Source of the DNA: Bradyrhizobium sp. CB1650
GTDB taxonomy: Bacteria; Pseudomonadota; Alphaproteobacteria; Rhizobiales; Xanthobacteraceae
Assembly (NCBI RefSeq): GCF_029761915.1
Contig: NZ_CP121695.1
Coordinates: 124,001-188,000 of the forward strand
Length of the DNA stretch: 64,000 bases
Direction of reading: 5' to 3'
The position numbers and the translations under genes are program-made. This document shows positions 13,475 to 59,579 of the stretch, in pieces; positions within the stretch are counted from its first letter, which is position 1; each line of letters opens with the position of its first letter. Below the pieces are notes generated by a model. The model worked only from the letters and a program-made list of their open reading frames with translations. It was not told the DNA's origin and did no database searches.

Positions 13475-14080
13475 ATGGACAAGTTCACCACGCTGGAAGG
13501 CGTCGCGGCGCCGCTGAAGATCATCAATGTCGACACCGACATGATCATTCCGAAGCAGTATCTGAAGACCATCAAGCGCACCGGCCTTGGCAAGGGGCTT
13601 TTCTCCGAGCAGCGCTACAAGGACGACGGCAGCGAGAATCCGGACTTCGTGCTCAACCAGCCGGCCTATCGCAACGCCAAAGTGCTGGTCGCCGGCGACA
13701 ATTTCGGCTGCGGTTCGAGCCGCGAGCACGCGCCCTGGGCGCTGCTGGACTTCGGCATCCGCTGCGTGATCTCGACCTCATTCGGCGACATCTTCTACAA
13801 CAACTGCTTCAAGAACGGCATCTTGCCGATCCGCGTCTCGCAGGAGGACCTCGACAAGCTGTTCGACGACGCCGAGCGCGGCGCCAATGCGACGCTGACG
13901 ATCGACCTGCCGAACCAGGAGATCCGCGGTCCCGACGGCGGCAAGGTCAAGTTCGAGATCGACCCGTTCCGCAAGCACTGCCTGATCAACGGTCTCGACG
14001 ACATTGGCCTCACGATGGAGAAGAAGGCCTCGATCGACACCTACGAGGACAAGCTCAAGCGCGAGCGCGCCTGGGCCTGA
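13475..14080 (+). CDS. leuD: 3-isopropylmalate dehydratase small subunit LeuD
   Basis: Small subunit of isopropylmalate isomerase (LeuC/LeuD) in leucine biosynthesis. The protein has 201 residues, starts [28 protein letters not shown], and carries the substrate loop [14 protein letters not shown]. The large subunit LeuC is not in the window; leuB lies 8 kb away. It is followed at once by a strong terminator. Confidence 0.96.
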
Positions 14081-14217: not shown

Positions 14218-15003
14218 ATGCTGCCCGAAATCGTCACCTTCTGGCATGGCCCGATGGACGCGCTGCGCCAGACTTGTCTGCGCTCGCAGCTCGCGGCCGG
14301 CCACAAGGTCACGGTCTACAGTTTCGACACCATTCCCGGCTTGCCGGCGGGCGTCGGCAACGCCGATGCAGAAGCGATCCTGCCGCATGCCTTCTCCGAG
14401 AGGCTGCGGCCGCCGCAGCCGGATGGAAGCTGGCGCGACTGGACCACGCTGCAATTCAGCGACTTCTTCCGGATGAAGCTGATGGCCAAGAGTCTTGGCC
14501 TCTGGCTCGACGCCGACGTGCTGCTGCTGAGGCCCGTCGAGATCGATCCGGCAAAGCCTTACTTCGCCTGGGAGCGGCCGCGCCAGCTCGGCAACTCCGT
14601 GATCTACCTGCCGGCGGAGCATGGCATCGTCCGCGCCTTCGAAGACCTGATGGAGCAGGAGGAACTGACGCCGGACTGGCTGTCGCTGCGCCATCGCATC
14701 ACGTTTGCGATGCGTCGCCTGCGCGGCGGCTCGAACCGGCTTTCCGACATCCGCGTCGCGATCTTTGGGCCCGCGGCGCTGACCGCGCTCGCCCGCCGCA
14801 CCGGCGAGCTGAGCTGCGCCCTGCCGAAGCAGTCGTTCTACGCCGTGCATGCCGAGCCAAAGCTGTTCTTCGAGCCGTCGAGCTATCTCGGCCTCGTTAC
14901 CAACCCCGAGATCATCGGCCTGCACATCTCGCCCAAAGGCCGCGGCGGGCAGCCACCGATGCCGGGCAGCCTGTATGCGTGGGCGGCGGAGCGGTTTGGC
15001 TAG
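14218..15003 (+). CDS. DXD-type glycosyltransferase-like protein
   Basis: A 261-residue protein with the sugar-nucleotide DXD motif in LGLWLDADVLLLRP (Asp98, Asp100), as in the Gly_transf_sug and capsular polysaccharide groups. The upstream DFFRMKLMAKSLGLWLDAD block is typical of that fold. No membrane segment. Acceptor and sugar are unknown; surface polysaccharide modification is inferred. The start is within 15 bp of a palindromic repeat and has little ribosome-site signal. Confidence 0.75.
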   Translation: MLPEIVTFWHGPMDALRQTCLRSQLAAGHKVTVYSFDTIPGLPAGVGNADAEAILPHAFSERLRPPQPDGSWRDWTTLQFSDFFRMKLMAKSLGLWLDADVLLLRPVEIDPAKPYFAWERPRQLGNSVIYLPAEHGIVRAFEDLMEQEELTPDWLSLRHRITFAMRRLRGGSNRLSDIRVAIFGPAALTALARRTGELSCALPKQSFYAVHAEPKLFFEPSSYLGLVTNPEIIGLHISPKGRGGQPPMPGSLYAWAAERFG

Positions 15004-15080: not shown

Positions 15081-15166
15081 CGTCATGCCCGGGCTTGTCC
15101 CGGGCATCCACGCTCTTTTGTGCCGCGGGCAAGGCGTGGATGGCCGGGACAAGCCCGGCCATGACG
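15081..15166. repeat. CGTCATGCCCGGGCTTG-type palindromic repeat, copy 1
   Basis: Starts CGTCATGCCCGGGCTTGTCC and ends with the near reverse complement GGACAAGCCCGGCCATGACG. A second copy is at 48426-48511 with GACCCGGG in place of GTCCCGGG. Confidence 0.8.
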
Positions 15167-15290
15167 CTGTGGAGGCTTCAGCACCTCAAGCTCTCACGTC
15201 ATATGCGATTACCCTGCGCTTGCGGCAGAGGGAGCGCACCGACTTTACGGGTGCACGTGCCGCGCTGCGTCCGCGGCACGAGATTCCAAT

Positions 15291-15304
15291 TTGATCCAGC
15301 GCAA
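15291..15304 (+). promoter_or_regulatory. FixK2/FNR-type box upstream of the DUF6455 gene
   Basis: TTGATCCAGCGCAA fits the B. japonicum FixK2 consensus as I recall it, TTG(A/C)-N6-(T/G)CAA. Its centre is 67 bp before the start codon, so a class II promoter would start transcription about 25 nt before the gene. Inferred from sequence only. Confidence 0.55.
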
Positions 15305-15364
15305 CGCATTTTCCTGCAGCTCTGCTCTATTGGCTCCAATTCCACGACCCGAACGGAGCCTTGC

Positions 15365-15784
15365 ATGAGCACCGCAAGCAGGCCTTATCCCATCGTCCAG
15401 GACCTCATCGAATCCTTTGCCGGCTGGCTGAAGCACCGCCGCGAGCTGAACGAGATGCGGCAGCTCGATCGCGCCGACTTCAACCGGATCGCCGGCGACT
15501 TGAGGATTTCGCCCGACGATCTGGAGGAGCTGGTCCGTCACGGCCGGCACGCCGCCGACGAGCTGCCGAAGATGCTGGAGCAGCTCGGCATCAACGCGGA
15601 GCGTCTTGGGCGCGCGCAGCCGCTGCTGCTGCGCGACATGGAGCGGGTCTGCGCACTGTGCAGCCAAAAGGCGCAGTGCGACCGCGATCTTGCTGGCGGA
15701 ACCGCCGCCGAGAACTACCACGGCTACTGCGGCAACGCCGCGACGCTGGAGTCACTCGATCGTGCCGACCTCGCGCCACACTGA
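15365..15784 (+). CDS. DUF6455-like Cys-containing small protein
   Basis: A 139-residue cytoplasmic protein. The N-terminal half (HRRELNEMRQLDRADFNRIAGDLRIS) resembles the DUF1127/DUF6455 helix-turn-helix-like segment. The C-terminal half has a cysteine cluster, Cys96-x2-Cys99-x5-Cys105 and Cys122, which could bind a metal or an Fe-S cluster. GGAG lies seven bases before the ATG. A FixK2-type box upstream suggests microaerobic control. Function unknown. Confidence 0.75.
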   Translation: MSTASRPYPIVQDLIESFAGWLKHRRELNEMRQLDRADFNRIAGDLRISPDDLEELVRHGRHAADELPKMLEQLGINAERLGRAQPLLLRDMERVCALCSQKAQCDRDLAGGTAAENYHGYCGNAATLESLDRADLAPH

Positions 15785-15854
15785 CGCGGCGCGGGAAATC
15801 TCGTTCGGCCGAGTACTTCTCAGTCCCTGCCTTGGATCGGTGTCGGGCCGGCCC

Positions 15855-15868
15855 TTGATCTAAATCAA
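15855..15868 (+). promoter_or_regulatory. Perfect FNR/FixK box upstream of the HD-domain gene
   Basis: TTGATCTAAATCAA is an exact TTGAT-N4-ATCAA palindrome, the FNR/FixK/Anr consensus. Its centre is 87 bp before the ATG at 15949. With class II spacing, transcription would start near 15903, giving a leader of about 46 nt. It lies in the 164-bp gap after the DUF6455 gene. Confidence 0.75.
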
Positions 15869-15948
15869 GCTTTCGAGAGAAGTTCGGGCGCGATTGTGGG
15901 TTGGCGATGACGAGTCATCGCCGCGCCCACACACTGAACGGGTGTCCG

Positions 15949-16794
15949 ATGATCACGATTCCTGAATTGGTGGCGCAGACCTTATCGTCGTTTCTGACGT
16001 CCGATACGCGAGACCGGTTTGGTTCTTCGCACGGCCGCTTGACCGAAGTTCTTCCGTTTGCGGCCAGACTTACATTGGAATGCATTGGCAACAGCGACGC
16101 TCTGTATCACGACGTAGAGCACACCATGCTCGTTACTCTTGCGGGCCACGATATTCTAATGGGACGGATGATGTTGCGGCCCACGACGGCCACAGACTAC
16201 GCGAATTTCATCCTGGCGTGCCTCACTCACGATATCGGATACGTACGCGGAATCGTTCACGGAGATTGCGACGACTCCTATGTCGCGGATTTGACCGGCC
16301 GCACCGTCCGTCTCCCGCGAGGAGCGTCGGACGCCTCGCTCGCGCCCCATCATGTGGACCGCTCGAAGCTGTTCGCCTCCGAGCGCTTCGACGGTGTCGA
16401 AGAGGTCGACGCAAGCCGAATTGCCCGAGCCATAGAATTTACGCGCTTTCCTTATACGGATTCCACAAACGACGAACTGATCGAGGAGGAAGGCATGCTG
16501 CTTCGCGCTGCGGACCTCATTGGTCAGCTTGGAGACCCGAACTATCTCAGAAAATCAAATGCACTGTTCTACGAGTTTGAGGAAATCGGGTTGAACAAGA
16601 AGCTCGGCTACGAAACGCCTGCCGATGTCGTTTACAAGTACCCACAGTTCTATTGGAACAATGTCGCGCCGCAAATTCAAAGCGCCATACGCTACCTCAA
16701 TATCACCGCGAGCGGGCGGCAATGGATTGCAAACCTCTATAGCAACGTTTTTCGGGCTGAGCGTGAACCGGGGCTATCCGGACCACAGCCATAG
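15949..16794 (+). CDS. HD-domain metal-dependent phosphohydrolase
   Basis: A 281-residue soluble protein. The HD motif residues are visible: His in DALYHDVEHTMLV (residues 51-63), His94-Asp95 in CLTHDIGYVRG, and a late Asp in LLRAADLIGQLGD (Asp189). HD enzymes hydrolyse phosphate esters, often nucleotides; the substrate here is unknown. The ATG at 15949 suits the upstream FixK box better than the in-frame ATG at 15907. Its GC content looks lower than that of its neighbours, which may mark acquisition by transfer. Confidence 0.8.
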   Translation: MITIPELVAQTLSSFLTSDTRDRFGSSHGRLTEVLPFAARLTLECIGNSDALYHDVEHTMLVTLAGHDILMGRMMLRPTTATDYANFILACLTHDIGYVRGIVHGDCDDSYVADLTGRTVRLPRGASDASLAPHHVDRSKLFASERFDGVEEVDASRIARAIEFTRFPYTDSTNDELIEEEGMLLRAADLIGQLGDPNYLRKSNALFYEFEEIGLNKKLGYETPADVVYKYPQFYWNNVAPQIQSAIRYLNITASGRQWIANLYSNVFRAEREPGLSGPQP

Positions 16795-17135
16795 TTGCCA
16801 GGTTGTCCGAATTCTGGAACGCGAGCCCCGGCCTCCTCACGTTGCCTGATGCACGCCCCTTCTACGGCAATCATTGCGCCGCGCATTGCCCACGCAGTTG
16901 GGCAACACTCCTTCCCTTAAGCATCTCTCCCCATTGATGTTCCCTGAGACAATACGGCCACCGCCCCCAAGGATTCACCTAGGTTAAGGAACGCTGTTGG
17001 GCAACACGCTCGCGAATGCACCGGCGCTCTCGCAACACCTCACTCGGGCTTGGTGCGGCGTATCGCGAAAGACCGAGATTATTAAGAACCAACGCTGAGC
17101 CGCGTGGTTACAGAGCAAACCCGCGAGGTGAGATC
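16795..17135. other. 341-bp intergenic region with a direct repeat
   Basis: No coding signal on either strand. The only structure seen is the 12-mer GTTGGGCAACAC, present exactly at 16897-16908 and 16996-17007, 99 bp apart; each copy contains the small dyad GTTG-GG-CAAC. It lies upstream of the exported protein gene at 17136, so it may be regulatory. Confidence 0.4.
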
Positions 17136-17654
17136 ATGCGTCATTCGGACTTGGCAGCCATCCTGTTCCTGGCCTTTGGCTTCATTCCCATCACCGCGTC
17201 TGCTCAGCAGGCGACGTCAGACACCAACCAATCTGCAAACCAGGCTGGCCCTGAGCGCACTCCGCAACAGTCAGGCCAATCCAAAACCCAAGACACCCCG
17301 ACCCAGCCGGAGCGCACTCCGCAACAGTCAGACCAGTCCCGCGACCGAGACCGCCGCAGCGCCGAAGACACGCGGATCAATCGAGATTGGACCACGCGAC
17401 AGCGTGGTGAGGACCGTATGGACATGGATCGCATGCATCAGCGCCAGATGGGCCGCATGATGGACCAGGATGAAGATCATCAAACCACAGGCCGAAATTG
17501 GCGGCGAGACGATGATGACATGGATCGCGGCCGCAGATATGGCTCCGTGGACCGGAGCGAAGGCCGTTACTACTATGACGTCCGGCCTCGTCCTCGCGTA
17601 AAGACCTGCGTCGAATACGAAAACGGCGACGAGTTCTGCCGGTACCGCGACTAG
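17136..17654 (+). CDS. Exported highly charged protein with a short internal repeat
   Basis: A 172-residue protein with a signal peptide (MRHSDLAAILFLAFGFIPITASAQQ). The mature part starts with two copies of PERTPQQS-x-QS, then is very rich in Asp, Arg and Met (GEDRMDMDRMHQRQMGRMMD), and ends with two cysteines (KTCVEYENGDEFCRYRD). GAGGTGA precedes the ATG at 17136. Probably a disordered periplasmic protein. Its stop codon overlaps the stop of the convergent lyase gene. Family not recognised. Confidence 0.65.
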   Translation: MRHSDLAAILFLAFGFIPITASAQQATSDTNQSANQAGPERTPQQSGQSKTQDTPTQPERTPQQSDQSRDRDRRSAEDTRINRDWTTRQRGEDRMDMDRMHQRQMGRMMDQDEDHQTTGRNWRRDDDDMDRGRRYGSVDRSEGRYYYDVRPRPRVKTCVEYENGDEFCRYRD

Positions 17655-20580: not shown

Positions 20581-21369
20581 ATGCAAGCGTTCCAGGCCGG
20601 CCCGACCGCTACCTCCACCGGGACCAGCATCCATCTGGCGCTCGCCGGCTTCGCCGACGAGATCGTGGGCACGCTGGCGCACCTGTTCGCCTATGTGGGG
20701 GCTCTGGCGCTGCTTGCCATCCTCGGCCTTGCGGCTCTCGGCCAGCTCCCGAATCTACGCGCCGATGAGCCGGCCCTGAAGCCGAGCTGGGGCGTTGCCG
20801 ATCGCTCGCATCCGGCATTCGCTCTCAACCGAATTGATTCGTCTGAAAAATCAGCCGTTTACATCATTCTCCGGCACCCTGGTGGCGGCCGCCGGGACGT
20901 GATACGCTGGTCCGGCGAGGCGGACAGGACCATTGCGGAGCTCAACATCTACCGGCCCGGCGGCGAATTCGACACAGGCCAGCCGGCCGCTGCCATCCTG
21001 GCGAGCTTGATGGGCGCGGCGGTGCCGCTCGAGCAAGCCGGACTGATCGACACGAAATTCGGACCGGTCGCGCTGTTCCGCTCCGGCGGGACGGCGAAGG
21101 GGGCGCCGTCGTGCCTGGGCTTTCTCAAGCGCAGCGACGACCCTGCGCTCCAGATCTCCGGCTTTTCTTGCCAGGGCGGCACCCTGCCCGCCCAGCGCGC
21201 GGCGATCGCCTGCACGCTCAACCGCCTGACGCTTTTGATCGCGGGCAACGAGCCGAAGCTGGCGGAATTGTTCGCACATGCCGAGCTCAGGCGCCGTCCG
21301 TGCAGCCCAGCCGGATCGCCGGATTGGCTGCTGGGAGTCGAGAACGCGCAATTGCGCGGGACGCTTTGA
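20581..21369 (+). CDS. Membrane-anchored protein of unknown function
   Basis: A 262-residue protein with one strong hydrophobic segment at about residues 33-55 (LFAYVGALALLAILGLAALG), then a soluble domain presumably in the periplasm. The soluble part holds four cysteines (SCLGFLK, FSCQGG, IACTLN, RRPCSP) that could form two disulfides. AAGG lies six bases before the ATG. Similar proteins occur in Bradyrhizobium genomes; I know no assigned role. Confidence 0.65.
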   Translation: MQAFQAGPTATSTGTSIHLALAGFADEIVGTLAHLFAYVGALALLAILGLAALGQLPNLRADEPALKPSWGVADRSHPAFALNRIDSSEKSAVYIILRHPGGGRRDVIRWSGEADRTIAELNIYRPGGEFDTGQPAAAILASLMGAAVPLEQAGLIDTKFGPVALFRSGGTAKGAPSCLGFLKRSDDPALQISGFSCQGGTLPAQRAAIACTLNRLTLLIAGNEPKLAELFAHAELRRRPCSPAGSPDWLLGVENAQLRGTL

Positions 21370-21525
21370 TCCAGACCAAGGTCAAGTCGCTGGTTTTCAT
21401 GCAACTTTTGCCTGCGCGCACGATTATTCCGGCCTGGTGTGACCCAATAGACCTAGTTCCGGCCGCCTCTGTCGGGCTAATATGGGGCGAAATTGATTGG
21501 CGGCTTGCCGCCTGAAGGGGACGTG

Positions 21526-58621: not shown

Positions 58622-58706
58622 GATCCTCGTTTTCGCGGGCTGCACGTTTTTTGCGGATTAGGACAGCCTCAGACCGATGCCGTGCCCAGCGCACCGGGGA
58701 GTTCCC

Positions 58707-58732
58707 GGAACGAAACTCACCACAGAACAGTT
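58707..58732 (+). promoter_or_regulatory. Candidate EcfG (general stress sigma factor) promoter
   Basis: GGAAC (58707-58711), a 17-bp spacer, then AGTT (58729-58732) resembles the alphaproteobacterial EcfG consensus GGAAC-N16/17-cGTT, with one mismatch at -10. It lies 77 bp before the Crp/Fnr gene and points toward it. Inference from sequence only. Confidence 0.35.
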
Positions 58733-58808
58733 TTCTCGTCCGTCCACTTGTGCACACGGTCAAACAACGGGACTCGCTAGTGTCGAAAGGAGCGCAGAGG
58801 GACACACG

Positions 58809-59579
58809 ATGGATGCACGCACGGGCAAGGTGACTGAGGTCGATAATCGACCCGCCAACAATCTGCTCCGGCGCTTGAGCCCGGCGGACTATGCCCTGCT
58901 CGCACCGAGCATCGCGTTTGAGAACGCCGTGGCGAACGATCTGCTCTACAATCCCGGCGACCACGTCCAGGTGGTGCATTTCCCTTGCGGGGCGTCGCTC
59001 GCCACCTTCCTCGTTCCGAACGAGGACGGCCGCGATGTCGAGACCATTTTGGTCGGCCGCGAAGGCGCGGTGGGCGGCATCGTCAGCGATGGATTTCTGC
59101 CGGCCTATACCCGCATCTGCGTGAAATTCGGAGGGCCGTTTGCGCGCATCCATGTCGGCAAGCTGGAAGCGGCAAAGCTGCGTTCGCCATCGTTGCGCAA
59201 CATCTTCGCCCGTTACGCCGATTGCCTGCTGGCACAAATCTTTCAGTCGACTGCGTGCAACGCCATCCACTCGATCGAGCAGCGCACGGCGAAGTGGATC
59301 CTCGCGGCGCTGGAACGGACGGGCGACGAGAACCGCGTGCCGTTGACGCATGAGCAGCTCGCGACACTGCTCGGCGTCGGTCGCAGCTATGCCAGCCGGA
59401 TCCTCCAGTCGTTCAAGGCCGAAGGCATTCTCGACACGCGGCGCGGCTCGATCCTGGTCCGAGACCGCCACGGCCTGCGCCTGCGCGCCTGCCTGTGCAA
59501 CGACGCGGTAAAGACCCATTTCGAGGAGGTGCTGCGGGGGGTGTATCCGACCGGGGAGGCGGACCGCGGCTCGGCCTGA
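58809..59579 (+). CDS. Crp/Fnr-family transcriptional regulator
   Basis: A 256-residue regulator with an N-terminal cyclic-nucleotide-type beta-barrel (DLLYNPGDHVQVVHFPCGASLATFLVPNEDG) and a C-terminal Crp-type winged helix (LTHEQLATLLGVGRSYASRILQSFKAEGILDTRRGSILV). Fnr-type N-terminal cysteines are absent, so it is not an Fe-S oxygen sensor. GAGGGA precedes the ATG at 58809. Divergent from a single-domain response regulator. Confidence 0.88.
   Translation: MDARTGKVTEVDNRPANNLLRRLSPADYALLAPSIAFENAVANDLLYNPGDHVQVVHFPCGASLATFLVPNEDGRDVETILVGREGAVGGIVSDGFLPAYTRICVKFGGPFARIHVGKLEAAKLRSPSLRNIFARYADCLLAQIFQSTACNAIHSIEQRTAKWILAALERTGDENRVPLTHEQLATLLGVGRSYASRILQSFKAEGILDTRRGSILVRDRHGLRLRACLCNDAVKTHFEEVLRGVYPTGEADRGSA

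Follow-up and report, generated by a model that had tools for sequence, protein, structure and literature searches.

The window analysed here is a stretch of 64,000 nucleotides (G000:C1:124001-188000; genomes and loci are cited by our G and L numbers) from the 9.43 Mb, single-contig genome of Bradyrhizobium sp. CB1650, and the features of interest in it are two neighbouring genes, one encoding a small protein of the DUF6455 family with four conserved cysteines and the other an HD-domain protein that resembles class I phosphodiesterases (Table 1). For both genes the relatives named as closest belong to Bradyrhizobium, and each gene is preceded by its own FixK-type box. A sequence-only reading of the stretch had taken both genes to be activated by FixK2 at low oxygen and had joined them into a small oxygen-limited module. 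The comparative evidence presented here agrees with the first proposal and speaks against the second: we consider it likely that these are two independently FixK-controlled genes, one a core gene and the other mobile, that do not form a conserved module.

Table 1. Features of the two-gene locus and its surroundings (window coordinates)
Feature	Position	Strand	Remarks
FixK2-type box of the DUF6455 gene, TTGATCCAGCGCAA	15291..15304	+	centre 67 bp upstream of ATG
Putative -10 and transcription start region, DUF6455 promoter	15321..15343	+	83% mean majority identity, 59 upstream regions
DUF6455 gene, 139 amino acids, orthologue of blr0497	15365..15784	+	PF20056, E 1.2e-5, above cut-off; blr0497 90% identical
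Four invariant Cys codons (C96, C99, C105, C122)	15650..15730	+	alignment of 44 sequences
Hypervariable stretch, DUF6455 gene to HpcH/HpaI gene, here with the HD gene	15785..17650	.	length 27 bp to 5.2 kb among 55 relatives showing both flanks (from L017-L074)
FixK/FNR box of the HD gene, perfect palindrome TTGATCTAAATCAA	15855..15868	+	centre 87 bp from ATG
HD-domain, class I phosphodiesterase-like gene (Npun_R2479-like), 281 amino acids	15949..16794	+	NF045583 match, PF28239 on relatives, fold matches
Putative metal-site codons H54, H58, H94, D95, H135, D189 of the HD protein	16108..16515	+	same residues in all 17 sequences (identity down to 42%)
leuD	13475-14080		named from sequence
Sugar-transferase-like gene	14218-15003		Pfam matches, all below cut-off
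HpcH/HpaI aldolase gene		opposite	beyond small gene at ~17136-17654; carbonic anhydrase gene next

A sequence scan located both boxes where they had been claimed, a consensus-fitting site before the DUF6455 gene and a perfect TTGAT-CTAA-ATCAA palindrome before the HD gene, and both match the FixK2 consensus TTG(A/C)-N6-(T/G)CAA given in a passage of PMC9104804. With expected numbers calculated by a first-order Markov model fitted to the window, the perfect TTGAT-N4-ATCAA occurs at 32 sites in the whole genome versus about 4.0 expected, and its expected number is about 0.027 per 64 kb, or about 1 in 9,000 per 250 bp. By the looser consensus about 0.012 sites are expected in any 250 bp; the window has seven, both boxes included, and the palindrome with up to two mismatches occurs at 31 window sites versus 11.9 expected. 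Conservation of the boxes among relatives is stronger evidence than these chance statistics. The genome has seven genes for CRP/FNR proteins in which an E-TVSR helix is recognised, some of these genes adjoining clusters of boxes; the CRP/FNR-family regulator gene of the window itself, at 58677-59579, does not match this recognition-helix pattern.

The case is clearest for the DUF6455 gene. Its product scores 25.7 bits against PF20056, for which the cut-off is 23.7, and carries the four cysteines (C-x2-C-x5-C-x16-C) that the first reading had noted. The search for orthologues returned 59 loci, of which L075, matched over 34 residues, was dropped; in all 58 that remain, every one titled Bradyrhizobium, a FixK box lies upstream of the gene. 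It is exactly TTGATCCAGCGCAA in 57 of them, 62-70 bp from the start codon, and the variant TTGATCTATCGCAA in L072, 80 bp from the start codon. Among the 59 aligned upstream regions, window included, positions 15290-15307 are 99% conserved, against a mean majority identity of 64-84% in the surrounding stretches, and the window sequence differs from the other regions at 15308-15320. Oxygen control of this gene is the half of the picture that has already been published, by way of blr0497 of strain USDA 110. Table 2 of PMC6515984 gives blr0497 a protein log2 fold change of 3.8 and transcript fold changes of 14.1 in microoxia and 12.7 in bacteroids, and marks it '+' for being a FixK2 target; a passage of PMC2908626 places it among the genes shown to be FixK2-dependent, its group 5478 being listed as 'hypothetical protein'; and it stands in lists of changed genes excerpted from PMC5017801 and PMC8632152. 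An identical 14-mer is given in Table 2 of PMC9104804 as the box of the oleate hydratase gene blr1289, which is 23-fold down without fixK2. The annotated USDA 110 blr0497 protein (P0135) has 15 extra N-terminal residues. These would begin upstream of the predicted transcription start, which makes translation from the ATG at 15365 more probable.

Beyond Bradyrhizobium, PF20056 matches were obtained in 18 of 385 genomes of the class and in 73 of 120 genomes of the family to which G182 belongs, tallies that are too low, since the class-wide search did not report the window's own gene (G000). From these we assembled 48 loci in 47 genomes (the 18 class-wide matches and the best 30 of the 73 in the family of G182, with one genome in both sets), leaving out the tandem copies L245, L246, L247 and L315; three of the 48 (L244, L314 and L316) fall under the PF20056 cut-off, and one of these three has a box. 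When 400 bp on either side of the DUF6455 domain were scanned with at most one mismatch, an FNR/FixK box was present upstream in 33 of the 48 loci and downstream in none, and shuffled sequences gave a mean of 0.5 and a maximum of 3. The box was found in 24 of the 30 loci from the family of G182, 57-92 bp from the domain in that set, and in 9 of the 18 elsewhere, at 59 to 289 bp. FNR/FixK-type control, as predicted from these boxes, is thus widespread in the DUF6455 family of Alphaproteobacteria. No literature linking DUF6455 as a family to FNR or FixK was found in the library and with the terms searched; the passages of PMC5398030 at hand contain nothing on the family, and an excerpt of PMC11819568 describes an ethylene-responsive DUF6455 gene in Azospirillum. 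DUF6455 domains often stand in tandem in the family of G182 (L278-L307), and a cluster of open reading frames is common upstream of the gene (28 of 46 loci), the one member tested, in L302, being an M48 metallopeptidase.

The HD gene has a different distribution. A member of the family occurs in 109 of 117 Bradyrhizobium genomes, and full-length copies of the window type in 46 of them (48 copies, 73-100% identity); more distant copies, at about 56-65% identity, are widespread, and the source genome itself carries one (G000:C1:6176863-6177687). The window-type copies form one clade with support of 100/99. We checked the upstream regions of 114 family members, the 48 copies and that of L067 as window type and 65 others, having set aside the duplicate L076; the duplicates L001 and L016 and the partial HD copy of G077 were also dropped from the analysis. 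A box with at most one mismatch precedes 19 of the 49 window-type copies versus none of the 65 others; a two-mismatch box upstream of the gene in L213, which lies outside the subclade, was not counted. On the tree, presence of the box requires 5 changes versus 17.9 with shuffled labels, a pattern that fits one gain followed by later losses. By eye, the window, L077 and L078 are alike in box and gene and differ in the DNA further upstream; the gene therefore seems to travel together with its box. The passages on the FixK2 regulon available to us hold no record of FixK2-dependence for the HD gene, and USDA 110 is not named among the HD relatives listed (120 of 8000 scored).

The arrangement of the two genes is tempting. 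With FixK boxes before both, only 164 bp between them and the same adjacency in a second strain (L067), they could be taken to serve a single low-oxygen process in which the cysteine protein senses or tunes the phosphohydrolase. The neighbourhoods of the two genes in other Bradyrhizobium genomes make this very improbable. L067 is the only one of the 58 other DUF6455 loci in which the HD gene adjoins, and when the lists for the 117 genomes were compared by eye the pair lay within 5 kb in the source genome alone, the nearest other co-occurrence noticed being in G108, where the genes are about 25 kb apart. Around the DUF6455 gene, leuD (54 of 58 loci), the sugar-transferase-like gene (54), the HpcH gene (55) and the carbonic anhydrase gene (51) recur with it, although some loci end early, whereas the stretch between the DUF6455 and HpcH/HpaI genes is hypervariable. 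The full-length window-type HD copies of the 46 genomes, for their part, lie in several contexts, with neighbours that mostly differ from clade to clade, and the window's HD gene has a GC content of 55% (64% at third codon positions) versus 67% and 84% for its DUF6455 neighbour. The proposed two-gene module is not borne out, and the pair look like chance neighbours, not like a functional unit. The idea that the variable stretch is a general collector of FixK-controlled cargo was also considered and rejected: six boxes occur in 124 kb (56 stretches) versus 2.0 expected, and two of the six are the HD boxes.

We therefore return to two genes under separate control. At low oxygen a FixK-type activator would bind the two boxes and activate the two genes from separate promoters; the DUF6455 gene would supply a small four-cysteine protein, most likely with an iron-sulphur cluster (or zinc), and the HD gene a phosphohydrolase of a roaming subfamily, part of which has its own FixK box, that would have landed in the variable stretch following the DUF6455 gene. 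The low-oxygen control first proposed for each gene is well supported by the boxes of all 58 DUF6455 loci, by the published dependence of blr0497 and by the confinement of the HD box to its own subclade; FixK control of the HD gene and its acquisition by transfer are inferred.

Two observations weigh against this account. The first is that 30 of the 49 window-type HD copies have no box, and in L082 only the right half-site is retained (by eye), so that the box of the window copy could be a relic, brought along by the gene and unused in this strain. We think this quite unlikely: no position of the window copy departs from the palindrome, the boxes of its three nearest relatives have a single mismatch each, and a box is also present in the first branch of the subclade (three rows). 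The second concerns the spacing for class II activation that had been read into both promoters. A DUF6455 box at -41.5 would place the -10 element at 15327-15332 and the transcription start near 15339, which makes class II spacing plausible there; but at 15327-15331 most relatives have a TAATT-like sequence and the window has CTATT, which leaves the -10 region less clear. For the HD gene, with the box centre 87 bp from the ATG, such spacing would be compatible with the sequence.

The DUF6455 protein is remarkable mainly for its cysteines. In an alignment of 44 diverse sequences (L280, L282, L296, L301, L304 and L306 left out) with a mean column identity of 26%, the sole invariant columns are C96, C99, C105, C122 and N124, and the four-cysteine motif is present in all 58 Bradyrhizobium loci and in all 46 other loci tested (L244 and L314 excluded). 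Four invariant cysteines and an asparagine point to a metal site, and the combination of low-oxygen control with the form of the cysteine loop suggests that it probably holds an iron-sulphur cluster rather than zinc. The AlphaFold model has a predicted local distance difference test score (pLDDT) of 52 and a predicted template modelling score (pTM) of 0.32. The loop, C-x2-C-x5-C-xx-W, prompted a comparison with WhiB. A search of the PDB with the DUF6455 profile yielded five rows with E values up to 10, of which the first and third are WhiB1 (E 0.087 and 0.11), aligned on the cysteine loop and the stretch before it, the second and fourth are designed helical proteins, and the fifth is a zinc finger (E 0.41). 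Aligned by hhalign with nine phage WhiB proteins, the profile gave E 0.0014 and a probability of 17% over 25 columns, and the real score was reached by none of 60 and by 5 of 800 column shuffles in which the cysteines were kept. We regard the resemblance as suggestive only. A structural zinc ion in place of the cluster is a serious contender, if the less probable one: CxxC pairs are common in zinc sites and a zinc finger is among the five rows, but many members of the family have low-oxygen boxes, and it is WhiB1 to which the loop aligns first, though not significantly.

The second gene most likely starts at ATG 15949 and not at TTG 15901, because the near relatives listed begin MITIPEL. It encodes an HD protein, as had been proposed, with a nearly full-length match to NF045583 (E 8.7e-88 over 267 residues), at 294 bits under the 400-bit cut-off, which was passed in none of the 249 genomes of the phylum search. 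PF28239 is carried by its relatives; against PF00233 it scores 12.3 bits, under the 24.8-bit gathering threshold. A low-confidence model of the protein nevertheless retrieves phosphodiesterase catalytic domains in 50 of 50 VIA-align rows and 49 of 50 Foldseek rows among the matches listed. Searches of the PDB were less telling, with no convincing row for the single protein; with the profile, phosphodiesterase rows covering residues 40-97 had E values of 0.08 or higher, and an unrelated row (E 0.041) ranked ahead of them. The protein would be a phosphohydrolase with the metal-site signature of class I phosphodiesterases and probably their fold; we infer phosphodiesterase activity and metal binding from the signature and the model. 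That it is instead a nucleotidase or an HD hydrolase of the deoxynucleoside triphosphatase (dNTPase) type seems somewhat unlikely on the signatures and fold matches, although the glutamine that we take to hold the base in class I enzymes seems not to be kept, the equivalent position, taken by eye, being Tyr or Phe. No literature naming the HD family a phosphodiesterase was found in the library and with the terms searched. We set aside as weak a link between the family and class III nucleotide cyclases: a cyclase lies within about 6 kb in 11 of 37 HD loci (window apart; loci where the HD gene was called), in about six separate contexts, and the 52 cyclase matches in the source genome lead one to expect two or three. 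These loci are L107, L110, L112, L115, L117, L118, L119, L125, L157, L169 and L170, with dCache-HAMP-cyclase proteins among the neighbours; in several loci the HD gene escaped gene calling or was called too short, so that neighbour lists are approximate.

Some further features of the window may be recorded. An inverted repeat at about 15085-15170, between the sugar-transferase-like gene and the DUF6455 promoter, resembles by eye a dispersed palindromic element. The small gene at 17136-17654 encodes an Asp/Arg-rich protein with a homologue at the same site in only 2 of the 58 relatives. Another FixK-like site, TTGATCCAGACCAA at 21366-21379, has one mismatch and lies about 150 bp upstream of a small open reading frame at about 21526. 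A search of Rfam gave no match, and one of PHROGs a single weak HD match.

As far as the literature was searched, two findings are new: the widespread DUF6455 box, together with the four invariant cysteines, and the box that seems to travel with genes of the HD subclade. A tempting two-gene module is thereby replaced by two testable statements. The first, that DUF6455 is a wide FNR/FixK target with a four-cysteine site, offers a starting point for working out what this unnamed family, patchy in Alphaproteobacteria, does. The second, that a roaming phosphodiesterase-like gene may carry its own oxygen-control box, would describe a way for a mobile gene to join the low-oxygen regulon of its host.

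Each gene can be set against known systems. The first belongs with the FixLJ-FixK2 regulon of Bradyrhizobium diazoefficiens, in which its orthologue, in the portions of the literature cited above, is FixK2-dependent and induced in microoxia. As a DUF6455 protein it keeps all four cysteines, but the PF20056 match extends over residues 62-132 of its 139, and the protein thus has an extra N-terminal part. With the Wbl (WhiB) iron-sulphur proteins the family has in common the C-x2-C-x5-C loop and a similar preceding stretch; it departs from the Wbl order, which we take to be C-xn-C-x2-C-x5-C and which is also visible in the WhiB alignment, in that the lone fourth cysteine follows the loop instead of preceding it, and its consensus has no GVWGG-like turn. 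The boldest proposal, and an unlikely one, is that DUF6455 might be a [4Fe-4S] family that resembles Wbl but occurs outside Actinobacteria, sharing the loop and having its fourth ligand on the C-terminal side. Induced by FNR or FixK in much of Alphaproteobacteria, its members would then serve as second-tier sensors of oxygen or nitric oxide within the low-oxygen regulon. The HD protein matches the Npun_R2479 HD metalloproteins (NF045583) over nearly its full length, and its relatives carry PF28239, but as it remains below the NF045583 cut-off it would represent a sister subfamily, one that in part has FixK boxes. With the class I cyclic-nucleotide phosphodiesterases (PF00233) it shares YHNxxH, HD and ADL, which we take to be signatures of that class, and probably the overall fold, and it differs from them in its sub-threshold score and apparently in the base-holding glutamine.
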